From contig JAHLLS010000010.1 of assembly GCA_020444045.1 (NCBI GenBank), positions 1-64,000 of the forward strand: 64,000 nt of DNA, given 5' to 3'. Of the stretch, positions 4,932 through 41,666 are shown piece after piece. Each line of letters opens with the position of its first letter. The stretch's first letter is position 1. A program made the translations under genes and the position numbers. The stretch is from Deltaproteobacteria bacterium. Its GTDB lineage: Bacteria > Desulfobacterota > Desulfobacteria > Desulfobacterales > UBA5852. The notes beneath the pieces are model-generated. The model saw nothing but the letters and a program-made list of their open reading frames with translations. It searched no databases and was not told the origin of the DNA.

Positions 4932-5831
4932 TTACGGGATCGTTTCGTCAAGATCGATCTGATAGAGTGCAGCTGCATTTTTCGACAACACTTGCCGCAA
5001 CGATTTTTCATCCAGCTTCAGTGTTGCCAGCCGCCGCAATTCCCGGTCCCAGGCATACGGGATATTCGGAAAATCCGTTCCGAACATCAGACGATCCAGG
5101 CGCATGCGACTGATATCCGGCGGATTGACTATCGGCAGGTAATCCGCCAGCACCATGGTGGTATCCAGCCACAAATGATCAAAGCGATCCAACAGACGCT
5201 GGTAAGCCTCGAATTCATCCGCTCCCAGATGGGGTACGACCAGTTTCAAGTCGGGGTATTGCCGCAGCACGCGTTCGACATGGGTCCAGTGGCAAATCTT
5301 GTAAGGATCGCAGGGATAGGCCGGGCTTTTGGGCTCCCGTCCAGCATGGATCAAAAGGGGCCGGCCATTGTCGGAACAGCAGGCATAGATGGCATGCATC
5401 CCCGGGCTATCCATTTCGAAGCACTGCACGTGGCTGTGCAATTTGACCCCTTTGAGCCCTTCGTTGAACGCTGTTTCAAGAAGGCGACGCGCACTGCTTT
5501 CGCCGGGGAACACCGTGGCCAGACCGGTAACCGCTTTGGTTTTTCTTACAAGATCGACCATATAGCGATTGAGGTCAGCCGCTATCCCGGGTTTGTGGGC
5601 GTACTGAAGCGCCACAATATGGCCAATACCATGTTGGAGAAGGAATGCCACCAGGCGTTCAGTATGAAGACGATAGCGGATCGGCCACCCGAACTGATCG
5701 AACCATCCCCAGACCGCATCGAAAAGCAAATCCGGAAAAACATGCACGTGGGCATCCACGACCGGTGGCAGGCTATCCGGCACGTAAGCGCCTTCCTGAT
5801 CATCCAGCCCTGGCAATGGCAGATCAACCAT
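4932..5831 (-). CDS. amidohydrolase-family metal-dependent hydrolase (TIM barrel)
   Basis: An Amidohydro_2-type TIM-barrel hydrolase of 299 residues. Metal-site elements appear in order: VVDAHVHVF near residue 25, a later LLIHAGREP, VVPHLGADEF and the C-terminal LMFGTDFPNIPY supplying the last aspartate. The substrate is unknown; family members include decarboxylases and lactonases. An AGAGGA ribosome site lies 9 nt before the ATG. The gene lies 51 nt upstream of the PAS-LuxR regulator on the same strand, so cotranscription is possible. It is cytoplasmic: no signal peptide is seen. Confidence 0.85.
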   Translation of the reverse strand: MVDLPLPGLDDQEGAYVPDSLPPVVDAHVHVFPDLLFDAVWGWFDQFGWPIRYRLHTERLVAFLLQHGIGHIVALQYAHKPGIAADLNRYMVDLVRKTKAVTGLATVFPGESSARRLLETAFNEGLKGVKLHSHVQCFEMDSPGMHAIYACCSDNGRPLLIHAGREPKSPAYPCDPYKICHWTHVERVLRQYPDLKLVVPHLGADEFEAYQRLLDRFDHLWLDTTMVLADYLPIVNPPDISRMRLDRLMFGTDFPNIPYAWDRELRRLATLKLDEKSLRQVLSKNAAALYQIDLDETIP

Positions 5832-6017
5832 GTAACGGTTTCCTCTCTTGACACTGTCGCCACCGGCAATCAGCGTCGTTCTTTGTCATCAAAACGCTTC
5901 CCCTTAATTCTCGCGCCACGCGAAGCGGACTTGAAATTGGATAATGAACCAACACTGCCAATCGTTATCGGATCGCCGAACCCTCACGGGACCTCCATAA
6001 GGAGCGGCAGGCGCCGA

Positions 6018-6929
6018 TCAAAATGAAGGGGCCGGAAGCCGTTCCAATCGGTGCCGCGCCCATTGCAATCCGGCCCGCCCCATCAGTCTGTACAAGGGCA
6101 AGGCCAACGGTAGCAACGGCAGCCATGCCGGCCGCAGATAGCAAATCCGGCTCAGGGTCAGGAATAAGGCCGGCAGATCCCTGATCTCGAATCGAACGCT
6201 GTCGCCCCATTGTTCCAAACGCCAGCGGCGGGCGGCTTTTCGTGCTGCTGCGTCGCCATCCCGAAAAAAAACCTCGACGTCGAAAGGGCCGTTTCCGTCC
6301 AGAGGGCGGACAGCATGGTTGGCAAGCGATGCCACGGCGCCCTGTGCTAAACCCTGTCGCCAGGACTGAGCATCAAAGCCCTCCGGGCCTGTTTGTTTGT
6401 CGATCGAATAGGTGGAAATCCCCGGAATGGCAGCCGCCGCCTGGCGGCATGCGTCCAGACAACCGGAAAAGAAAACCGGCCGGATGCCATAGGGCGCCAA
6501 GAGCGCGGCAAACAGAGACACTTCGGATAGCAGCGCACCATTCGCCCGGACGGCGGCCAGCCGGGAGGTCATGGTGTGCGGCAGGAACCCATCCGTCCCG
6601 GAAGCGGCGTGCAGCCCCAGGAAAAGCACGGCCTGCGCCTTCCCCGGATCCCCCATACCGGGAATGGGTCCCAAGGCATATCCGCTGTCAACCCGGGCGC
6701 GACGATCGATTCTTTCAGGCAAGAGGTTGTAGCCCGTGCGATGAAAATCCTTGACGATGATATCTGTGACACCCGCCCTCAACAGGGCCTGGACCACCGC
6801 CTCGACATCCTTCGTCATTTCAGCGCAGGCGATTGCCCATTGCGGTGTCAGGAAGGAAGAGGCCGCGTAGTTCCAGCAACCGGAACTTCCTTCGATGTCG
6901 GCAACGATCAGGACGCGCTGGAACGGCAC
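6018..6929 (-). CDS. M55-family D-aminopeptidase (DppA-like)
   Basis: A zinc peptidase of the DppA family, which releases N-terminal D-residues from peptides. All catalytic positions are present at a constant +3 offset from Bacillus DppA numbering as I recall it: D11 and E13 (DIEGSSG), H63 (KDFH), H107 (GLHA), the nucleophile H118 (LPHTMTS) and E136 (LSEVS). The GTG start at 6929 lies inside the end of the threonine aldolase gene (22 nt overlap), so translation is probably coupled. The C-terminal 60 residues are arginine- and leucine-rich and less conserved. A joint role with the aldolase in recycling amino acids or peptides is inference. Confidence 0.87.
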   Translation of the reverse strand: MPFQRVLIVADIEGSSGCWNYAASSFLTPQWAIACAEMTKDVEAVVQALLRAGVTDIIVKDFHRTGYNLLPERIDRRARVDSGYALGPIPGMGDPGKAQAVLFLGLHAASGTDGFLPHTMTSRLAAVRANGALLSEVSLFAALLAPYGIRPVFFSGCLDACRQAAAAIPGISTYSIDKQTGPEGFDAQSWRQGLAQGAVASLANHAVRPLDGNGPFDVEVFFRDGDAAARKAARRWRLEQWGDSVRFEIRDLPALFLTLSRICYLRPAWLPLLPLALPLYRLMGRAGLQWARHRLERLPAPSF

Positions 6930-7966
6930 GAGAGCAGGACTTTTTTTAGATCGGCGACAAACCGGTGAATATCCTCTTCCGTTGTATCAAAAGAGGTCAT
7001 CCAGCGCACTTCGGAGGTGCTTTCGTTCCAGACGTAAAAGGGGCAGATCGCCTGCAGCGGGGCAATGATGTGCGGGGGCACCATTGCAAAAACACCATTG
7101 GCTTCGACCTTCTGGCTGATAATGATTTCCGGCAGGGCTTTCAGTTCGTCCGCCAGCAACCTAGCCATGCGGTTGGCGTGGCCGGCGCAACGCCGCCAAA
7201 GATCGTTGGACAGCAGGGCATCGAACTGGGCTGCGATAAACCGCATTTTGCTTGCCAGCTGCATGCCTTGCTTGCGTCGATATTTAAAATTACGGGTCAG
7301 TGCGGTATTGAAGAAAACAATGGCTTCGCCCATCATCATCCCGTTTTTGGTGCCACCGAAGGAAAGCACATCCACCCCGCATTCCACCGTCACTCGGCGC
7401 AAGTCGACACCTAAATGAACCGCGGCGTTGGCCAGACGGGCGCCATCCATGTGGAGCACCATCTCGTGCGCATGGGCCAAATCGGCAATGGCCCGGATCT
7501 CTTCCGGTTGATAGACGGTGCCCAGTTCGGTGGCCTGCGTAATGGAGATCACCCGCGGCTGGGCATGATGCTCGAATCCGAAACCGTGCAAATGCGATCG
7601 GATGCCGTCGCAGGTCAGCTTTCCGTCGGAAGTCGCGACCGACAATAGTTTGCACCCGGTGTGGCACTCCGGTGCGCCGCATTCGTCCACGTGAATGTGG
7701 GCGGTATCCGCGCAAACGATGGCGTTAAACGGTTCGGTGGCCGCCTGCAGGGACAGCACATTGGCGGCGGTTCCCAGGTAAACGAAAAAAACCTCGACAT
7801 TGTCACCGAAATGCTGCCGGAAACGATCCACCGCGGCAGCGGTGTAGGGATCCTCGCCATAGGCCACAGCATGGCCCTGATTGGCGGCTGCCATGGCGTG
7901 CATGATATCCGGATGCACACCGGCATGGTTGTCGCTTGCCAGTCCTCGCCAAATGTCACCACGCAT
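6908..7966 (-). CDS. low-specificity L-threonine aldolase
   Basis: A PLP enzyme cleaving L-threonine or L-allo-threonine to glycine and acetaldehyde. It has 352 residues from the ATG at 7966, chosen because GAGAGG lies 5 nt upstream and the protein then begins MRGDIWRGLASDNHAG, matching the family N-terminus (the frame is open to 8038). PLP-site residues are D174 and R177 (HMDGARLANA) and the Schiff-base lysine K207 (SFGGTKNG). It forms a two-gene unit with the overlapping D-aminopeptidase. The length is normal and nothing appears to be missing. Confidence 0.9.
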   Translation of the reverse strand: MRGDIWRGLASDNHAGVHPDIMHAMAAANQGHAVAYGEDPYTAAAVDRFRQHFGDNVEVFFVYLGTAANVLSLQAATEPFNAIVCADTAHIHVDECGAPECHTGCKLLSVATSDGKLTCDGIRSHLHGFGFEHHAQPRVISITQATELGTVYQPEEIRAIADLAHAHEMVLHMDGARLANAAVHLGVDLRRVTVECGVDVLSFGGTKNGMMMGEAIVFFNTALTRNFKYRRKQGMQLASKMRFIAAQFDALLSNDLWRRCAGHANRMARLLADELKALPEIIISQKVEANGVFAMVPPHIIAPLQAICPFYVWNESTSEVRWMTSFDTTEEDIHRFVADLKKVLLSCRSSAS

Positions 7967-8148
7967 GCCGACCTCTCCCGTTTCAATTTGTTTCTTCAGG
8001 ATCGAGACGGTTTTATCCCATTCATGACCGGCGGGCAACCCCCGGCAGCTCGATTTGAATCAAGCTGCCCGGCACAAGCCCGCCTGATAGCGCGTTCACC
8101 ACGACCGGTTGCGCAGACACCTCCGCGTCACATGATTGCCCTGTGGGG

Positions 8149-9405
8149 TCAAGGCGACGGGAGCTGGTTTTGAATGGCGTTGATCCGGCTTAAAACCGGC
8201 GGATGGGAATAGTTCAAAAAAACGTAGAACGGATGCGGGGATAAATGAGACAGATGGGTGACGGAAAGCTTTTTCAAGGCCGACACCAGCGCTTCACCAT
8301 TGCCGGTGGTCTCGATTGCGAATCGATCGGCGGCATACTCGTTGTGACGCGACAGCACCATGCTCAGGATACCGGTAAAAAAATCCACCGGTGCGTACAA
8401 CAACCCGAAAAGAACCAAACCGGCGTAAATGGAAGGTTGCGGCATGTAGAACGCTGCGAAAAGGGCCGGATGCGCAATGCAGAGGGACAGGAGAAAGAAC
8501 ATGACACCGGTCTGGGCGACCGCTGCCATCAGGCCGGTACGGACATGGTGCTTTTTATAATGCCCCATTTCATGGGCAATAATGGCGACCAGTTCGTCCC
8601 GGTCGTGCTGCTTGATCAGGGTATCAAAAAGCACGATGCGCCGGTTGTGGCCAAAACCCGTGAAAAAGGCATTGCCTTTTCCGGAGCGCTTGGATCCATC
8701 CATGACGAACACATTCTGCAACGGAAAATCGATCGCGTCGGCATAGCGCCGAATGGCTTTTTCAAGCGCGGCATCGCCCAGGGGTTCGAAACGGTTGAAC
8801 AAGGGCATGATCCAGGTCGGGGCGACATACTGCATCACAACCATGAAACTCACCACCGCGGCCCAGGAATAAACCCATGCCCAGGACCCGGCCTCCTGAA
8901 AAAAGAAAACAATGCCTGCCAGCAGCGGTGCTCCCAACAAACAGGCCAAAACCGTGCCCTTGATGCGGTCCATGACAAACGTACGCCAGGACGTCCGGTT
9001 GAACCCGAATTTTTCTTCAATGACAAAGGTGCTGTACACACTGAATGGCAGTGCGATGAGGGCTCGCAAGACCACAAGCACTCCCACGAAAACAAGGCCC
9101 GATAGAATCGTTCCCAGACCTAAAGTTCGCACCCAGGCATCCAAAACGGGAAACCCGCCGGCCAACCAGAAGGCCAAAACCGCCGCCAGCTGGATTCCCC
9201 CGGCCATCCACCCGAAGCGGGTATTGATGGAAAGATAATCCTTGGTCCGCTGGTAATCCCGCGTTTCAAACAGGGGTTCGAACGCCACCGGCGGCGATGC
9301 CGGCATGGCCTTCAAGTTCAGGCGATCCGCCAGCCAGTGCAGCCCGAAATCCGCCAAAAGGGCCCCCAATACGATCCAGCCGATACTGTTCAAGGATTCT
9401 GACAT
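8149..9405 (-). CDS. M48 family membrane metalloprotease (Ste24/CAAX protease-like)
   Basis: An integral-membrane zinc protease of the Ste24 type, 418 residues. The N-terminal CAAX-protease region carries several hydrophobic segments (about 5-25, 65-85, 95-120, 150-170 and 178-200). The zinc motif H278-E279-M-G-H282 sits in AIIAHEMGHYKKHH, and the third ligand region is NEYAADRFA near residue 355. Bacterial homologues are generally assigned to membrane-protein quality control; the substrate here is unknown. The upstream 319 bp hold a promoter-like sequence and an intrinsic terminator, so the gene may have a leader that is attenuated. Confidence 0.9.
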   Translation of the reverse strand: MSESLNSIGWIVLGALLADFGLHWLADRLNLKAMPASPPVAFEPLFETRDYQRTKDYLSINTRFGWMAGGIQLAAVLAFWLAGGFPVLDAWVRTLGLGTILSGLVFVGVLVVLRALIALPFSVYSTFVIEEKFGFNRTSWRTFVMDRIKGTVLACLLGAPLLAGIVFFFQEAGSWAWVYSWAAVVSFMVVMQYVAPTWIMPLFNRFEPLGDAALEKAIRRYADAIDFPLQNVFVMDGSKRSGKGNAFFTGFGHNRRIVLFDTLIKQHDRDELVAIIAHEMGHYKKHHVRTGLMAAVAQTGVMFFLLSLCIAHPALFAAFYMPQPSIYAGLVLFGLLYAPVDFFTGILSMVLSRHNEYAADRFAIETTGNGEALVSALKKLSVTHLSHLSPHPFYVFLNYSHPPVLSRINAIQNQLPSP

Positions 9406-32930: not shown

Positions 32931-34616
32931 TCATTTCTTTTCATTATCTAACCGAAGCTTAAAAAGGGCGTATCCATTTTTCTCCGCTATGGTCTCTAAA
33001 TCGCGCTGTAACCATCGGCGGACTTTAATTTGATCTTTGGTCGTTAGGTTTTGATGCGCCCAGTATCGCAGCCCCTCCATACCAACCATCACGTGCGTGA
33101 GACCTTTTTGGGTCATGGCGTTGGTCAAGGCCTGCGCATCGGATACTCTTACAACCAAATTTTTAAATTGAGACCACTCATAAAACAGGGTGTCTATCTC
33201 AAAATAATAGCGCCGGTTCCCGAGAAAAACACATAGGATGCGATCCCCTTCCTTCAAGTGTTGATTTGCATAACGGATAAGGGAATATTCGGGCCGGTGA
33301 CGCGTGATATAGGCTCCGCGATCCACCTGTCCGCCAATATATTCCAAAGGCCGCACGCTTTCCCATTTCTGGTATATGTATAGAGCGTTAAGGGTCAACA
33401 TGAGCATCACCCCTAATGATGCGGTGATCTGCAATCCTTGGCGCACAGCGGTATTGGGACCATAACGCACCCAACTATAGACATTTCGGATCCCGAAAAC
33501 GCTCAAGATGACCAACGGTGGGATGGCCGGTGCAATGTACCGGATACGCATATCCCGGGTAAAAAAAACGATGAGGATGAAAAGCAGCGCAAACCCACCC
33601 CATACCGATTTTTCAAATTGCATCCCCTGCAACTGACGCTTCGATTCGAGCAGACCAATGACTGCCAATGGCAGGAGGAAGAAATTCAGCCGCCCGTCAA
33701 ACAAGGCCGGCACATCATCTTGTCCCTGAAAAAAGATGCGAATGGGCACCAGGAGCGTTTGCCATAGGGTTTCGCCGTAAACCAATCGCCGCATGGCAAA
33801 AGGGTTCAAACCGGATTCGATATAGGGCTTTTGAGGATTGAAGACGGTGTCGTAGAGGGGGTAAAGCGGATTGCCCGTCCACAAAAAGTTGCGCACAGCC
33901 CAGGGGGAAAACAACAATAGTGCGACAGAAACAAAAAACATGGTGGAAATGGCTATAGTTTGCCAATTGACAGCTTTCCCATTCGGATCGATTGAAGGTT
34001 GCGAATGCCGGCCGCCAATAATCGGCACCAGCAGGGTCAATAGCAAAAAGACCACCAAGCTGTTATATTTCGTTCCCAGTGCCAGACCACAAAATACGGC
34101 TGCGAGCAACAGATGCCTCTTATGAAGCCCGCTCTGTCGCCACTCAAGGAGATAGATCAGGGCCGCGGTCGAAAAAAAAATGAGGCCGAGATCCACATAA
34201 ACGGTGATGGAAAGCTGAATAATGATCGGCAGAGATAGAAAAAGCAGCACTCCTAAAAGGCCGTAGATCTGGTTCAAGCGATCACGAAGGTAACGATATA
34301 ACAACATCGCCGTGAGGAGGCCAAAGAGCATATGGATATATTTAGGGATGATGTCATTTCCCCATAAAAGTGGAATAAGGTACAGCAAATCCATGTTCAT
34401 GGGAAAATAGGAGGGAACAATATCCGGCATTTCCACCATCCGACCTTCTGCGATATAGAGTTTTGGCACCGCCAAATGGTGGGTCAAGGCATCGCGACTG
34501 AACGGCGGGACAGACGCCATCAATACGATGCTGATGGTCAGCAGGATAAGAAGCAAGATCAATAACCAGCGCACGCCGATGCACTCTGAACGGTTGTTGC
34601 GCTTTTTCGTTTTCAA
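32931..34616 (-). CDS. GT39-type (PMT/ArnT-like) membrane glycosyltransferase
   Basis: A 561-residue polytopic transferase with about ten membrane helices and a C-terminal periplasmic part (about 420-560). SRDALTHHLAVPKLYIAEG near residue 42 is the family's first extracytoplasmic loop with its catalytic acidic residue; YFPMNMDLLYLIPLLWG follows. It transfers sugar from a polyprenyl-phosphate donor to a protein or lipid acceptor on the outer face of the inner membrane (family knowledge). It overlaps the VKOR-DsbA gene by 4 nt. The 274 bp downstream hold no gene or terminator I recognise. Confidence 0.84.
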   Translation of the reverse strand: MKTKKRNNRSECIGVRWLLILLLILLTISIVLMASVPPFSRDALTHHLAVPKLYIAEGRMVEMPDIVPSYFPMNMDLLYLIPLLWGNDIIPKYIHMLFGLLTAMLLYRYLRDRLNQIYGLLGVLLFLSLPIIIQLSITVYVDLGLIFFSTAALIYLLEWRQSGLHKRHLLLAAVFCGLALGTKYNSLVVFLLLTLLVPIIGGRHSQPSIDPNGKAVNWQTIAISTMFFVSVALLLFSPWAVRNFLWTGNPLYPLYDTVFNPQKPYIESGLNPFAMRRLVYGETLWQTLLVPIRIFFQGQDDVPALFDGRLNFFLLPLAVIGLLESKRQLQGMQFEKSVWGGFALLFILIVFFTRDMRIRYIAPAIPPLVILSVFGIRNVYSWVRYGPNTAVRQGLQITASLGVMLMLTLNALYIYQKWESVRPLEYIGGQVDRGAYITRHRPEYSLIRYANQHLKEGDRILCVFLGNRRYYFEIDTLFYEWSQFKNLVVRVSDAQALTNAMTQKGLTHVMVGMEGLRYWAHQNLTTKDQIKVRRWLQRDLETIAEKNGYALFKLRLDNEKK

Positions 34617-35800
34617 TCGATAAACCTTTTTAATATTTCGGGAGGGATCTGCCCCTGGTAAAGCTGTCCGTCAATCAAGAAACCGGGGGTGCCTTCCATG
34701 CCCAAGTGGATGCCTGTCAGAATATCCCTTTTGAGGTGTAATTTCATTTCCGGGGTGTCGAAATACGCCGCCATGCGGTTTGCATCAAGCCCTGACAATT
34801 CCGCCATTTGAGTAATGCTCATCCCCCCCGAACCTCGGGCATGATGATAAACCACGTCGTTGAATTCCCAGAAACGGCCTTCGACAGTAGCATAAATGGC
34901 CAGAAGCGCCAGTTTTCCCGAGCCCACATGATACGCATCCTTTACAATGGGGTTAAACTTGTGGTCCATGGGAAAATGCCGATGGATCAACCGGATCCTA
35001 TCAGGATAGCGTGCAACGAGTTCCCGCAGGAAATAATGCATTTTTTTACATTGGAAACAAAGATAATCTCCGAATTCAACGATTTCCAGATCAGGATCCT
35101 GGGCGCCGATCCAGGGGTGCCCCTCCTCTGTAACCCCCGTGGCAATGTGTTCCTCCAATAGGGGTTGCTCAAGGGCCCAATAGTCAGGATAGGCTCCCAT
35201 AGTGACGCCCACAATGGAGATGGCAACGGCAAGGCCAACTGCTGACATTCGACGCCTCTGGGAAAAAAAGGCCAGGTCTTCCCGCAGTGCCATAATCCAA
35301 GGCGCCTGGTCAAACCGGCGTCTTATCAGCCAAGCGAAGTACAAAAGGAGGAAATTAATGCCATAGCTGATCAGACACATGATGCAATAGCTGTGAATGA
35401 TCAGCGATGAAACAGCCGCCAGCGCGACGCTGACAAGGCTAAAAATGCCAGCCATAAATGAAAGCAGCGCCCAGCCACGCTTTTTTTCAGCATCCCGGCG
35501 CCACACCACCGTTGAAATCAGTAAAAAGATAACATAACCGATCATTCCCCAGACAGCGACAGGAACACCTGCGAATATCGCGTAGGGACTCTGGGCCACC
35601 GTGTCGCAGTTAATTGCTTTGGACAGAGCACAAAAGCTTTTATAGCCGATATCCGTGAAGACCTTGTAATGCGAAATGGCAAGATAAAGGGAAACCCCTA
35701 TACCACTCATCGCTAAAAAAGCAACCACGCCGTAGTAGACTGGAAACGGCAGCACTTTAGCCTTTGGTTTTGAATCGGTTGTTTCCATTATGATCGACAT
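34613..35800 (-). CDS. VKOR-DsbA fusion, periplasmic disulfide-generating protein
   Basis: A 395-residue fusion. The N-terminal VKOR domain (about 20-165) has four or five helices, the loop cysteines C57 and C65 (CALSKAINC) and the quinone-proximal C139-I-M-C142. A further helix (about 187-205) leads to a periplasmic thioredoxin-like DsbA domain with C248-F-Q-C251 and the cis-proline in MEGTPGFLIDG. VKOR passes electrons from the DsbA domain to quinone, so one protein replaces DsbA plus DsbB. An ATG at 35788 is an alternative start. It lies between a GT39-type transferase and a TPR protein, near a two-cysteine pilin. Confidence 0.9.
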   Translation of the reverse strand: MSIIMETTDSKPKAKVLPFPVYYGVVAFLAMSGIGVSLYLAISHYKVFTDIGYKSFCALSKAINCDTVAQSPYAIFAGVPVAVWGMIGYVIFLLISTVVWRRDAEKKRGWALLSFMAGIFSLVSVALAAVSSLIIHSYCIMCLISYGINFLLLYFAWLIRRRFDQAPWIMALREDLAFFSQRRRMSAVGLAVAISIVGVTMGAYPDYWALEQPLLEEHIATGVTEEGHPWIGAQDPDLEIVEFGDYLCFQCKKMHYFLRELVARYPDRIRLIHRHFPMDHKFNPIVKDAYHVGSGKLALLAIYATVEGRFWEFNDVVYHHARGSGGMSITQMAELSGLDANRMAAYFDTPEMKLHLKRDILTGIHLGMEGTPGFLIDGQLYQGQIPPEILKRFID

Positions 35801-35833
35801 AAAATTTCAAGTACCTCGGCCCAGCTCTTAATC

Positions 35834-37942
35834 TTAGCGGCCGGAAGCGATATCTGCCATCGCCCTGTGAATGATCGGGGCAACAATATCATACGCGATG
35901 GGGGCAAATCGACGTTCGTCCGGCAGACGCTCCAAATAGGCCAGAATCGCGGGCAACGTAAAATCAGCGGCCAGCCTACGGCACTCTTTTTGAGCGCGCT
36001 GTTGATCCCCGGCGCGGGCGGCGTTTTCAATCAACGCCAGCCGGGGATGCATATCACCGGGACTGCGCTTGGTGGCCTGCCTCAGAAACCACTCGGCGTT
36101 GGAATAGCTGTCCATGCGGTTGAGCGCCACACCGATGTTCAGCCATATGCCTGAATGATGAGGGGCTAAAGCAAGAGCTCTTCTAAAATCGGTCATAGCC
36201 TTTACAGGGTCGCCCTGCCAAATAAGAATAAACCCCCTTAAATTCAAATAGGCAGAATTAAAGGGCTTTGCAGCCACCAGAATATCGGATTGTTTTTTGG
36301 CATCATCCAAGCGCCCCGTCAGAATCAGGGGCATAATCATATCATATCGACCCTTGAGAAATTCTGGATCGACCACCAACGCCTGTTGGTATAGCTTGAT
36401 AGCCCCACCAAATGATCCGTTATGATAGAGGATACTGGCCATATTTCCGATAATCTCGGCTTTCAAAACGTCGCGCGATATGTACAGATCGAGGGATTTG
36501 CGAAACATGGCATAGGCTTGAGCATATTGTGCAGGCGAAGTCTGTTCGGACCAGGCCAGCCGGATGGCAAGATTGTTCAAAGGTCGGGCATTGTTGGGCG
36601 CTTTGATCATCGCATCGGTCCAAAGGCTTTCTTCAGTCATCCAGTCCATATTCCGGATGTAGGTTCCAACCCCCATGCTGACAATCCACATTATAGGCAA
36701 AAAGGCCACCAAGCCAAACAAAACACGGTTGGTGTTCTTCAGACTTTCCAGCAACCGCCAAATTCCAACAGCCACCGGCAGAAAAATGAAAAGCGACGGC
36801 AGATAATTGCGATGCTCGAACACCAGCTCCAGCGGCAGGATGCTGGATTCGATCAGATGGTTGAGTAAAAAGAATAATATCGCCAGCGCTATCAACCGTC
36901 GACGCCAGATAAACCAGAAACCGACGCCCCCCAAAAATGTCAGCAGAAGTATGGCGGGTAGCGTAGTCCAGGGGTACCAAAGCGACTTGGACAGCACCAC
37001 ATCGTGAACGATAGAGAGGCGATTCGGCGACGGTATCAAGAGTAGGGAAATGTAAAAAAGAACGACACGCGACTGGGTTAAGAGTCTTTCTGACAGGGTA
37101 AACGATCGCTCGCTGTAGACCTTTTCAAAGTATGCCACCGGATCGAATTGCATAAAAAACAGTGCACCCAGACCAATGAGCAGAAAAACAGCCAAAACAA
37201 TCGTCAACATTTTGGGAAGACGCTGCCGTATCTGATCGGGTCCCTGGAAACCGATCAGTTCCAACAAGACAAGCGATGCGGGCAGTAGAATGGCGTTTTC
37301 CTTGGACCCGACGGCTAAAAAAAAATACAGGACTCCGGCGGCGCCCCAGACAAAACGCCTGTTTCGTTCATCCGCCATTCTGGCTTTTAAGTAAGCATGC
37401 ATACCCAGCAGATAGAACAGGGTGGCCAGGATGGTCATACGTTGCACCACATAGGTGACGGCTTGGATCTGGATCGGGTTGACCGCCCAAAGGGACGCCG
37501 TAAGCACAGCGGCAAAATGCCAGCCATCGGGCGACAGATAATGGTGCAGTTTGGGAGTCTGGCCGAGCATCAAGATAACGATGTAAAGGGTAAATGCGGT
37601 GAGAATGTGAAGGAGGATGTTGCACCAGCGGTAGCCGGTGGGTTCGTCCTGACCGAGATACCAGTTCAGGGCAAAGCTCAAGTTGGCCACCGGCCGGAAA
37701 AGGCGCTCGCCCTTGCCCTGATTGGCGAAAAAGGTGCCCCAAAGGGAAGACGGCATCAGATCGTCGATATGCAGCCACCGGTTGTCGACAATGTTGGGCC
37801 GGTCATCCAGCTGCCAGGCCGCTCCTCCCACATGGGCATAAATGGGGACGATCAACGACACGAGCAGGATCAGTACTATCAGTTGGACTTTCGGCAACGG
37901 TATTCTCGCAGGGTTTTCCATGGCAACGATCAGTCGAGGCAC
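35834..37942 (-). CDS. polytopic membrane protein with C-terminal TPR repeats (O-glycosyltransferase-like)
   Basis: A 702-residue protein. Residues 15-440 contain about ten membrane helices, with WQLDDRPNIVDN (an early acidic loop, DD) and a NPIQIQAVTYVVQRMT segment typical of the DUF1736/TMTC-like transferases. Residues 450-690 form TPR repeats on the periplasmic or cytoplasmic side. Genes of this type are often found beside pilA in deltaproteobacteria, and a protein-glycosylation role (for example on pilin) is plausible but not shown. An ATG at 37924 is an alternative start. The stop is 33 nt before the VKOR-DsbA start. Confidence 0.82.
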   Translation of the reverse strand: MPRLIVAMENPARIPLPKVQLIVLILLVSLIVPIYAHVGGAAWQLDDRPNIVDNRWLHIDDLMPSSLWGTFFANQGKGERLFRPVANLSFALNWYLGQDEPTGYRWCNILLHILTAFTLYIVILMLGQTPKLHHYLSPDGWHFAAVLTASLWAVNPIQIQAVTYVVQRMTILATLFYLLGMHAYLKARMADERNRRFVWGAAGVLYFFLAVGSKENAILLPASLVLLELIGFQGPDQIRQRLPKMLTIVLAVFLLIGLGALFFMQFDPVAYFEKVYSERSFTLSERLLTQSRVVLFYISLLLIPSPNRLSIVHDVVLSKSLWYPWTTLPAILLLTFLGGVGFWFIWRRRLIALAILFFLLNHLIESSILPLELVFEHRNYLPSLFIFLPVAVGIWRLLESLKNTNRVLFGLVAFLPIMWIVSMGVGTYIRNMDWMTEESLWTDAMIKAPNNARPLNNLAIRLAWSEQTSPAQYAQAYAMFRKSLDLYISRDVLKAEIIGNMASILYHNGSFGGAIKLYQQALVVDPEFLKGRYDMIMPLILTGRLDDAKKQSDILVAAKPFNSAYLNLRGFILIWQGDPVKAMTDFRRALALAPHHSGIWLNIGVALNRMDSYSNAEWFLRQATKRSPGDMHPRLALIENAARAGDQQRAQKECRRLAADFTLPAILAYLERLPDERRFAPIAYDIVAPIIHRAMADIASGR

Positions 37943-38133: not shown

Positions 38134-38550
38134 TCAGTTCGTGATGGTCATAGTAAAAACACCAGCATTCCAGCCAGGGGAGGCGGCCATGTAATCCGCC
38201 GGACAGCGGGTGGAAATGTCGGTTACAGTGACGGTGATGTTGACGTTAGGATCGGCACCTGTAACGGTCGCTGTGTTAACACCGTTGGTACTTGTGCTAA
38301 GTGTTATGCCAGCTCCGCCGTTCAGGTCAGCGAAGGCGGGCGTGTTGATGTGTGACGGCATAGAGAAATAGTCAGCGATGGCCGCAACAACGGCGGTAGC
38401 ATCGGATTCAGCGGCCGTACAGAAGGCCTTGTTGCGGTAGGCGATGAAGTTGGGAATGGCGATCGCGGCCAGGATACCGATGATGGCGATGACGATCATG
38501 AGCTCGATCAGGGTGAAACCTTCTTTGTTGCTTCTCAGTTTCTGCAGCAT
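38134..38550 (-). CDS. pilA: type IV pilin PilA
   Basis: The major-type IVa pilin subunit. The 138-residue prepilin has a short basic leader, cleavage at G11|F12 by PilD ([11 protein letters not shown]), E16 at mature position 5, a hydrophobic helix to about residue 32 and [15 protein letters not shown]44 and C116 are the only cysteines and could form the fold-stabilising disulfide; the globular domain is small and threonine/serine rich (about 80-110). The ATG at 38550 is chosen over the open frame to 38700, with AGGAGG just upstream. It is transcribed from a sigma54 promoter 125 nt upstream and ends at a strong terminator. Confidence 0.94.
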
Positions 38551-38674: not shown

Positions 38675-38690
38675 AGCAATGAGCATGCCA
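38675..38690 (-). promoter_or_regulatory. sigma54 (-24/-12) promoter of pilA
   Basis: On the minus strand, TGGCATG (38690-38684), four bases, and TTGCT (38679-38675) make GG-N10-GC with both consensus blocks intact. The start is expected near 38665. Confidence 0.82.
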
Positions 38691-38797
38691 GTTGCCACAT
38701 GCCAATTTATTTTTTTTCATCACATCGTATTTATTGCATAATTCGATCTTCCCCACCCAGCGCAACCTTTCAGAAGTATATGGCTATACCAAGCATC

Positions 38798-38833
38798 TGA
38801 CAGAATTTGTCAGGAGATTGACATTTTTTGTCA
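38798..38833. promoter_or_regulatory. two phased TGACA-N5-TGTCA dyads, candidate PilR sites
   Basis: TGACA-GAATT-TGTCA (38798-38812) and TGACA-TTTTT-TGTCA (38819-38833). Centres are 21 bp apart, two helical turns, and 115-136 bp upstream of the sigma54 promoter. Known PilR-bound sequences contain TGTC. A PilR gene lies 2.8 kb away. Confidence 0.65.
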
Positions 38834-39054: not shown

Positions 39055-39092
39055 TCGCGATCTGCGAAAATCTGCGTCACCTGCGGATTAAT
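39055..39092. repeat. intergenic repeat-like tract
   Basis: The tract ATCTGCGAAAATCTGCGTC, followed by ACCTGCGGATTAATC, repeats the unit ATCTGCG and closely resembles intergenic phrases that occur in many copies in unrelated genomes. It overlaps the 3' end of the PIN gene. Only one copy is visible in this window. Confidence 0.35.
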
Positions 39093-39516
39093 CTTTCGTT
39101 TTTTGGATAGCCATACATCGATAAAATTCAAGGAATTCCCTTGGGGATAAGAGACGCACCCCTTTCCGTAAATCGGTGGGGAAATGAATCGCGTTGCCTG
39201 TGATCAATGCGTTTACATTTCCGGCAATGGCAACCGCGATAAATGGTTCATCGTCGCGGTCCGGTAAACGATCGTGTAAGGGGCTTCCCGAAACAAAATG
39301 TCCATAATGTTCGACAAAATCAAGCAAGACCGCCACATCGTCTCGGTTGAATCGAAATTTTGGACAATGAAGGACATCTCGGTATTCCGATAGAATTCTG
39401 GCATCCAAAAACAGGGTAAGGCTATTCGAAAAAACCAATCGGACAATTTCCCCGCTTGAACCGAAGGGCGTAAGCAACCCGGAAACAAGAATATTCGTAT
39501 CGAGTACGATTTTCAC
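39088..39516 (-). CDS. PIN-domain toxin of a type II toxin-antitoxin pair
   Basis: A 142-residue PIN-domain nuclease of the COG1569 type: the first acidic residue D6 (VLDTNILVSGLL), ILSEYRDVLHCPKF in the middle, and DRDDEPFIAVAI followed by ITGNAIHFP, the TGN-HFP variant typical of this subfamily. Toxins of this class cleave RNA using acidic residues and a divalent metal. The ATG overlaps the antitoxin stop by 4 nt, the normal order (antitoxin first). Confidence 0.86.
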   Translation of the reverse strand: MKIVLDTNILVSGLLTPFGSSGEIVRLVFSNSLTLFLDARILSEYRDVLHCPKFRFNRDDVAVLLDFVEHYGHFVSGSPLHDRLPDRDDEPFIAVAIAGNVNALITGNAIHFPTDLRKGVRLLSPREFLEFYRCMAIQKTKD

Positions 39517-39800
39517 GATTTCCGCTCATCCCTGACAGCTTGAATTTCAGCATCGATCTCATCCATGGATATTTTGTCTGTCCCCTGCCCGGTCGATTCA
39601 TACTGGATGGCGGCTACGGCATTGGTTGCGCGTGCCAGTCGAAAAGCCTTTAAGACCTTTTCAAGATTGCTTTCATTGATGGATGAAAGCATGGCAATCG
39701 GCCTGCCGTTACTGGTCAAGATCATTTCTTTTTGAGCCGGTAGCTCCTTCCACACTTGTGCCGATTTCGATTTTAATTCTCTTATGCTTAAAAACTTCAT
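39513..39800 (-). CDS. Phd/YefM-like antitoxin
   Basis: A 95-residue antitoxin for the overlapping PIN toxin. The N-terminal DNA-binding fold is Phd/YefM-like (FLSIRELKSKSAQVWKEL, then EMILTSNGRPIAMLSS), and the acidic C-terminus (DKISMDEIDAEIQAV) is the expected toxin-binding tail. GGGAGG lies about 6 nt before the ATG. Two short palindromes upstream are possible autoregulatory sites. Confidence 0.85.
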   Translation of the reverse strand: MKFLSIRELKSKSAQVWKELPAQKEMILTSNGRPIAMLSSINESNLEKVLKAFRLARATNAVAAIQYESTGQGTDKISMDEIDAEIQAVRDERKS

Positions 39801-40271: not shown

Positions 40272-41666
40272 TTACTTGTCATCCGCCATTTTCCCGAGGC
40301 GATGCCGGAAGGATCGGAACGTGATCCCCAACAGCTCCGCAGCGCGGTTTTTGTTGCCGTCGGCGATTTCAAGGCCTTTTTGGAGGTAGGCGTACTCGAT
40401 TTCCCGCAAAACAACATCCAGGGCGATGCCCTTGGCCACATCGTCCAAGTCGTAGCGCTTACCCTCCACGCCCTCGATCCAGCGACGTTTGTGTACCGAC
40501 AGCGCCAGGCTTTCCGGCAGGATGATGTTGGTACTGGTCAGGGCCACCGAGCGCTCCATGAGGTTTTCTAGCTCCCGCACATTGCCCGGAAAATCGTATT
40601 TATTCATCAAATCAACGGCATAGGAGGATAATTTTTTGATTTCCTTACCCATCTCGCGGGAATATTTATCCAGGAAATGCTGGGCCAGCACCTTTAGATC
40701 ACCCTTCCGCTCCCGCAGGGGAGGCACCTTGATCTCGATGACGTTCAGGCGATAGAACAGATCCTCCCGGAACCGGCCTTCGATGACTTCCTTGGCCAGA
40801 TTCTTGTTGGTGGCCGAGATGATGCGGCAATCTACCTCGATGTCCTCGTTGCTGCCCACTGGTTTAAAAGATTTTTCCTGGACCACCCGCAGCAGTTTGA
40901 CCTGCAGGGGCATGCTCAACTCACCGATTTCATCAAGAAAAACCGTTCCTTTGTGGGCGGCCGCAAACAAACCCTTTTTATCCTGGGTGGCCCCGGTAAA
41001 CGAGCCCTTCATATGGCCGAAAAGCTCGCTCTCCATCAGATTTTCCGGAATGCCGCCGCAGTTGATCGCCACAAAGGGCTTGATCGACCGCTCGCTTTCA
41101 TCGTGAATGGCCCTGGCGATCAATTCCTTGCCGGTGCCGCTCTCACCCGTGACCAGGACATTGGTGCGTGTCGGGGCAACCTGCCGGATCAGGTTGAAAA
41201 TATGCTCCATGGCCGGGCTGTTGCCCACGATCTTGCTGAAATGGATGTTCTTTTTCAACTGATCATCAACGGTCTCTTTTTCGTGTTCGAGGGTTTTCAG
41301 TTCCAGCGCGTTGGCGACCGTGGCCTTGAGTTCATCGTTGTCAAACGGCTTGGGGACGTAGTCGTAAGCCCCCTCATTCATGGCCTCCACCGCCACTTCG
41401 GTGGTGACATAGGCCGAAATCATGATGACGACAGTGTCGGGATTCTTGGCCTTGGAGGCCCGCAGAACATCGAGGCCGGTGATGTCGCCCAGACGAATAT
41501 CACAGATCATTAAATCATAGCGGTCCTCACCCAGCATTTGCACCGCCCGGGTGCCGGATTCAGCGCACGTCACCTGATAACCCTCCTTGATCAGGAGGTA
41601 TTCAAGCAATTCCCGCATGCTCAGTTCATCGTCCACGACAAGAATGTGATACGCCGGTTTCGTCAT
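40272..41666 (-). CDS. pilR: sigma54-dependent response regulator, PilR-like
   Basis: A 464-residue NtrC-family regulator. The receiver domain (1-125) has D12/D13 and the phosphoacceptor D56 (MICDIRLGD). The AAA+ domain (about 145-385) has Walker A GESGTGKE, the sigma54-contact loop as GSFTGA (the variant found in PilR) and Walker B TVFLDEIGEL. The C-terminal Fis-type helix-turn-helix (about 420-460) includes NRAAELLGITFRSFRHRL. PilR activates sigma54 transcription of pilA; a matching promoter lies 2.8 kb away. The cognate sensor PilS is not adjacent: the next gene upstream on this strand is pyrC, after 108 bp. Confidence 0.88.
   Translation of the reverse strand: MTKPAYHILVVDDELSMRELLEYLLIKEGYQVTCAESGTRAVQMLGEDRYDLMICDIRLGDITGLDVLRASKAKNPDTVVIMISAYVTTEVAVEAMNEGAYDYVPKPFDNDELKATVANALELKTLEHEKETVDDQLKKNIHFSKIVGNSPAMEHIFNLIRQVAPTRTNVLVTGESGTGKELIARAIHDESERSIKPFVAINCGGIPENLMESELFGHMKGSFTGATQDKKGLFAAAHKGTVFLDEIGELSMPLQVKLLRVVQEKSFKPVGSNEDIEVDCRIISATNKNLAKEVIEGRFREDLFYRLNVIEIKVPPLRERKGDLKVLAQHFLDKYSREMGKEIKKLSSYAVDLMNKYDFPGNVRELENLMERSVALTSTNIILPESLALSVHKRRWIEGVEGKRYDLDDVAKGIALDVVLREIEYAYLQKGLEIADGNKNRAAELLGITFRSFRHRLGKMADDK

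Follow-up and report, generated by a model that had tools for sequence, protein, structure and literature searches.

Paired TGACA-N5-TGTCA dyads with conserved geometry upstream of the sigma54 promoter of pilA in a Desulfobacterales genome

RESULTS

The pilA locus and its neighbourhood

The window, which is the whole 64-kb stretch of DNA analysed here, contains a type IV pilin gene, pilA, transcribed on the minus strand from an ATG at 38550, and farther upstream a gene for a sigma54 activator, pilR. The features of the region are:

38134..38550, minus strand: pilA, encoding a 138-aa type IV pilin that has two cysteines and an N_methyl domain and is 66-73% identical to its family orthologs
38675..38690, minus strand: sigma54 -24/-12 promoter of pilA, TGGCATGCTCATTGCT, kept in five family orthologs and order-wide
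38682..38697, minus strand: second, weaker GG-N10-GC copy, TGGCAACTGGCATGCT, assigned from sequence only
38715..38755, minus strand: AT-rich spacer; the order-wide motif profile shows enrichment of an IHF-like bend site here in other species
38798..38812: promoter-proximal dyad, TGACAGAATTTGTCA, an exact TGACA-N5-TGTCA match; relative to the T in the -24 box, the order-wide start of this dyad is about -121
38819..38833: promoter-distal dyad, TGACATTTTTTGTCA, an exact TGACA-N5-TGTCA match; relative to the T in the -24 box, the order-wide start of this dyad is about -142
39088..39516, minus strand: PIN-domain toxin gene (PF13470), between pilR and pilA
39513..39800, minus strand: Phd/YefM-type antitoxin gene that pairs with the PIN gene (its PF02604 match is slightly under the curated cut-off)
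40272-41666, minus strand: pilR, encoding receiver, sigma54 AAA+ (GSFTGA) and Fis-type HTH domains (Pfam), with orthologs in the family and in most order genomes tested

The pilA promoter reads TGGCATG-CTCA-TTGCT (38690..38675), and thus contains the TGGCATG-N4-TTGCT that an earlier, sequence-only reading had noted before pilA; its GG-N10-GC stands in the TGGCAYR-N4-TTGCW context of a sigma54 promoter, and an rpoN gene was found in the genome. The weaker copy TGGCAACTGGCATGCT overlaps this promoter 7 bp farther upstream, is a poorer match, and was not seen in the family orthologs. The two dyads are located as that reading had described them: both are exact, they start 21 bp apart, and they lie about 115-136 bp upstream of the -24 box. 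The same reading had called the control region complete. The promoter and the dyads agree with this description, but the AT-rich, IHF-like element found about 25-60 bp upstream of the -24 box in the order-wide profile, where it is enriched, is weak in this genome's copy.

Dyads of this kind are more frequent than expected by chance. Dyads with at most one mismatch occur six times in the window compared to 1.5 expected, and none of 100 shuffles reached six. Similarly, the whole genome (5.71 Mb) contains 14 exact dyads, but only one match to a reversed control pattern. With a strict pattern of the pilA-like geometry, the pilA site is the sole match in its own genome. Sites in this genome were found by patterns and the list of sites is a lower bound.

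The pilR product has the domains of the NtrC family, and its closest solved relatives are also NtrC-family proteins. In the window, pyrC and pyrB lie upstream of pilR; the gene order pyrC-pilR-pilA recurs in many genomes, with pilR the usual neighbour of pilA. No sensor kinase gene was seen beside pilR here, where a PilS-PilR system would have its cognate kinase PilS, and no H-box or G-box was found in the 36 order loci checked. In this genome the phd/PIN pair (39088-39800) splits pilR from pilA. The relatives checked have no such pair at this place; in G069 and G164, for example, pilR ends directly before the pilA region. The gene with the GSFTGA loop, reported to lie 2.8 kb away, does have its start codon 2.8 kb from the dyads, but its stop codon is only 1.4 kb from them. 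To describe this locus as a nearly self-contained circuit is an overstatement, because no kinase gene adjoins pilR, the toxin-antitoxin pair interrupts the arrangement, and the same pair of dyads occurs at other promoters (see below).

Downstream of pilA (34613-37942) are genes for a TPR membrane protein resembling glycosyltransferases and for a VKOR-DsbA fusion, and a glycosyltransferase-like TPR gene also follows pilA in other families (for example at L019, L022 and L025). Since PilA has two cysteines and these genes lie downstream of it, it is plausible that they serve the pilin as a module for disulfides and glycosylation.

The dyad pair is conserved at pilA across the order

The sequence-only reading had proposed that lack of the dyads upstream of orthologous pilA genes would count against its interpretation; we find that they are conserved. 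In all five family relatives, pilA is preceded by a good sigma54 promoter and by a dyad pair with 21-bp spacing and 0-2 mismatches in total. The sequence between the promoter and dyad elements largely differs among these relatives, and thus the elements form a footprint and do not merely reflect a lack of divergence.

Matches to named organisms put the window within the Desulfobacterales or close to them. We examined conservation beyond the family in 100 non-redundant upstream regions of pilin genes with a sigma54 promoter from the order, scoring a pair if it had no more than 4 mismatches in 20 positions and a spacing of 20-22. A dyad pair was found in 56 of these regions, compared to a mean of 0.05 in shuffled sequences, and a good pair was absent from the other 44. 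Pairs were also present at pilA copies on contigs other than that of the PilR ortholog (G034, G105 and one of the two copies in G037). Of 291 order genomes, 19 contain two exact dyads with 1-31 bp between them, and the control pattern yielded none; about 22 of the 30 exact pairs have a gap of 6-7 bp, which corresponds to a start-to-start spacing of 21 or 22 bp. Outside the order, some pilin genes have the pair (for example at L206, L219, L225 and L229), and most are without it. Because the same arrangement recurs across the order, the dyad pair is almost certainly the landing site of a protein that switches on pilA, and perhaps related surface genes as well.

Spacing and helical phase of the dyads

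When all spacings between 15 and 39 were scanned with no more than 3 mismatches, 25 of the 100 regions had a pair at 21, 10 at 20 and 4 at 22, with 0-3 at each other spacing. The distance from promoter to ATG varies from 72 to 244 bp across the order. A 10.5-bp phase is seen for dyads that carry no more than one mismatch (Rayleigh p about 4e-10), and also for the 30 dyads that lie outside the two main clusters (p about 4e-4), although these p-values are guides only because the regions share descent. For the 30 dyads, periods of 8, 9, 12 and 13 yield no phasing. The helical phasing suggested for this locus is therefore real, both between the dyads and relative to the promoter (with the order-wide 10.5-bp phase), and the dyads have the location (about 80-200 bp upstream) and the promoter phasing of an upstream activating sequence. 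The sites, their order-wide conservation, their fixed spacing and their phasing are direct observations, and they support the pilA dyads as a conserved sigma54 enhancer.

The distal dyad, with the profile consensus TGACAAATTTTGTCA, is the better conserved member of the pair at pilA order-wide, and the proximal dyad is weaker. Within the distal dyad, the N5 shows conservation of about 1 bit per column, and the 6 bp between the dyads show none, which favours the dyads themselves as the units. The pair also contains an outward-facing TGTCA-N6-TGACA, that is TGT-N10-ACA, which could be parsed as a NifA/PilR-like unit, but the conserved N5 and unconserved N6 speak more for the dyads.

A second class of sites at other sigma54 promoters

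A search for a sigma54 promoter with dyads at a shorter distance gave 22 matches in six family genomes and none with the control. After choice of the best pair, the class consists of 21 distinct sites, two of which are from other families and came from earlier searches. The spacing is 22 bp in 14 sites, 21 bp in six and 23 bp in one. The distal dyad keeps to 107-112 bp from the -24 box, even though a range of about 81-133 bp was searched. The targets include an operon of a CcdA/DsbD-like protein and thioredoxin, a zinc-ribbon protein, small genes controlled by riboswitches, and PEP-CTERM-like and other exported proteins. The occurrence of dyad pairs at these promoters suggests a wider surface and pilus regulon.

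In this genome, the ccdA-thioredoxin operon is divergent from yggT-divIVA-pilT-pilU, and a dyad pair lies between the two operons (L189:4002-5458 and 5789-9001); the ccdA-side site is common to G069, G141 and G181. PEP-CTERM-like exported proteins stand behind a dyad and sigma54 promoter at L272, L180 and L187, in a family that has no PrsR at the cut-off given below.

Loci with c-di-GMP-I-GGC riboswitches were examined in the family, and five of them have a dyad pair and a sigma54-like promoter, at a distance of 108-110 bp:

L262/L190 (L190:3335-3556): riboswitch locus with dyad pair, this genome
L241, L248, L249, L253: riboswitch loci with dyad pair

The promoter in this genome is the poorest of the five. 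At these loci the dyad pair and promoter immediately precede the riboswitch, which is followed by genes for small conserved proteins or, at L253, by a start resembling that of a LEPR-type adhesin.

At three further loci, a site of the 22-bp/110-bp class is followed by a short, structured putative transcript, a candidate small RNA:

L277: this genome, C29 at about 199,217
L281: G069
L284: G141

The candidate has a conserved long stem and a terminator-like hairpin at its end, and its consensus fold contains 40 pairs, 5 of which are changed on both sides, from three sequences only. No convincing gene was found in this region in the three genomes, and no Rfam family matched the candidate.

Which activator reads the pilA dyads

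PilR is likely the reader of the pilA dyads and is the best candidate, because the order pyrC-pilR-pilA is widely conserved. PilR orthologs score far above paralogs in most of the order genomes tested, and the predicted recognition helix, GI[ST]FRS[FL]R[HY]RL, shows almost no variation in the PilRs recovered from the order. None of 32 other regions, taken from around activators of the same genome, resembled this helix (best 7/14), a comparison that covers about 30 other HTHs in a genome encoding about 85 related sigma54 activators. The PEP-CTERM regulator PrsR (TIGR02915) was considered as a reader and rejected: the best family score was 445 bits and that of the PilR in the window 399, compared to a cut-off of 502.6. 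We found no significant association between having pilR next to pilA and having the dyads (Fisher p 0.26).

The large number of sigma54 activators leaves room for the dyads to be a sigma54 enhancer read by another member of the NtrC family, or for a second activator to read the 22-bp/110-bp sites. Two observations fit such an explanation. First, the site classes differ in geometry (spacing and distance are 20-21 bp and about 142 bp for pilA but 22 bp and 107-112 bp for the other promoters), and since this fixed geometry is not that of pilA, a second, similar activator at the 22-bp/about 110-bp sites is possible. Second, a good pair is missing at the pilA of G067, G140 and G093 though a clear PilR ortholog is present. 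However, pilR is the conserved neighbour of pilA, the recognition helix of PilR is absent from the sampled paralogs, and no PrsR of the family scored above its cut-off, and we consider a reader other than PilR, at either class of sites, to be unlikely.

We think it very improbable that the dyads are not protein sites at all, but terminator hairpins of pilR or of another upstream transcript, or mobile repeats. The dyads are indeed inverted repeats, placed between pilR and pilA in many genomes, and near-identical copies are clustered in some, such as G144 and G166. Nevertheless, the stems are short and AT-rich, and the toxin-antitoxin pair parts the dyads from pilR here. Moreover, the two-turn spacing and promoter phasing, together with the occurrence of dyads at pilA copies far from pilR and before unrelated sigma54 promoters, disfavour a terminator or repeat. 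Binding of a repressor or nucleoid protein unrelated to sigma54 is likewise hardly credible: pilA of Geobacter is also under the control of the repressor GSU1771 and IHF (PMC7962754), but a fixed position more than 100 bp upstream of the -24/-12 promoter, in helical phase with it, is what sigma54 enhancers typically show and repressor sites seldom do.

DISCUSSION

We consider it probable that the region is the enhancer of pilA, at which a sigma54 activator, most likely PilR, acts from two dyads on the same face of the DNA. According to this model, two dimers, or one higher oligomer, of the activator would occupy the two 15-bp dyads (of the type TGACA-AAATT-TGTCA), the activator most likely being the PilR encoded just upstream of pilA. 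Separated by two helical turns and placed about 100-140 bp upstream of the -24 box, the dyads would face the same side of the DNA. The stretch between them and the promoter would loop, in many species with the aid of an IHF-like bend, and the activator's AAA+ ring would then open the sigma54-RNA polymerase complex at pilA. We infer that PilR is the binder, as well as the number of dimers, the looping and the signal.

The finding is a variant of the known PilR/sigma54/pilA circuit, and is ordinary in kind. PilR acts through sigma54 on pilA in Pseudomonas (PMC6058289) and Geobacter (PMC2725144). The PilS-PilR/pilA system of P. aeruginosa resembles the locus described here in its NtrC-type PilR, its sigma54 promoter and possibly its upstream activating sites, with elements of the TGT and GTCT types; the PilR site there is marked by a NifA-like TGT-N11-AGA and nearby GTCT elements (PMC6058289). 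It differs in that its kinase, PilS, is known, whereas none was seen beside pilR here, and in that the locus here has two palindromic dyads at a fixed two-turn spacing and pyrimidine genes upstream. Geobacter sulfurreducens is similar in that pilA is immediately downstream of pilR and has an RpoN-dependent promoter (PMC2725144); in Geobacter, IHF mutants are without PilA (PMC7962754), and PilR sites were predicted at 54 loci with sigma54 promoters, as cited in PMC6058289. The dyad pair also occurs in some other members of the phylum. DVU2114 of Desulfovibrio vulgaris, a regulator of pili whose targets and motif were mapped experimentally (PMC3333781), is likewise a response regulator of the sigma54 kind that controls pilin genes of a sulfate reducer, but its targets are pili of the Flp/Tad type, while the pilA here is type IVa-like. 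Neither TGACA-N5-TGTCA as a PilR site nor a pair of fixed geometry was found in the open literature searched, outside a survey of Geobacter PilR sites (Gene 469:31-44) and a paper on unphosphorylated PilR. The paired-dyad form with fixed geometry is well supported and possibly undescribed.

More tentatively, and with some doubt, we suggest that one PilR without an adjacent kinase may use two discrete enhancer geometries to run a surface-attachment regulon throughout the order. The regulon would include pilA at 20-21 bp/about 142 bp and, at 22 bp/about 110 bp, the ccdA-thioredoxin operon, the riboswitch genes, exoproteins (adhesin- and PEP-CTERM-like) and the small RNA. If this is true, targets would be sorted by geometry and not by sequence, and a cyclic dinucleotide would act after initiation as a gate on part of the output.

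The rules for sigma54 enhancers are usually called loose. The spacing and distance at pilA are near base-pair-exact across very divergent species, and may thus provide a test of how strict activator geometry is. The paired dyads are a searchable signature for the pilus and surface regulon of little-studied, environmentally important sulfate reducers, one that may tie this regulon to genes with a cyclic-dinucleotide riboswitch and to disulfide-handling genes.
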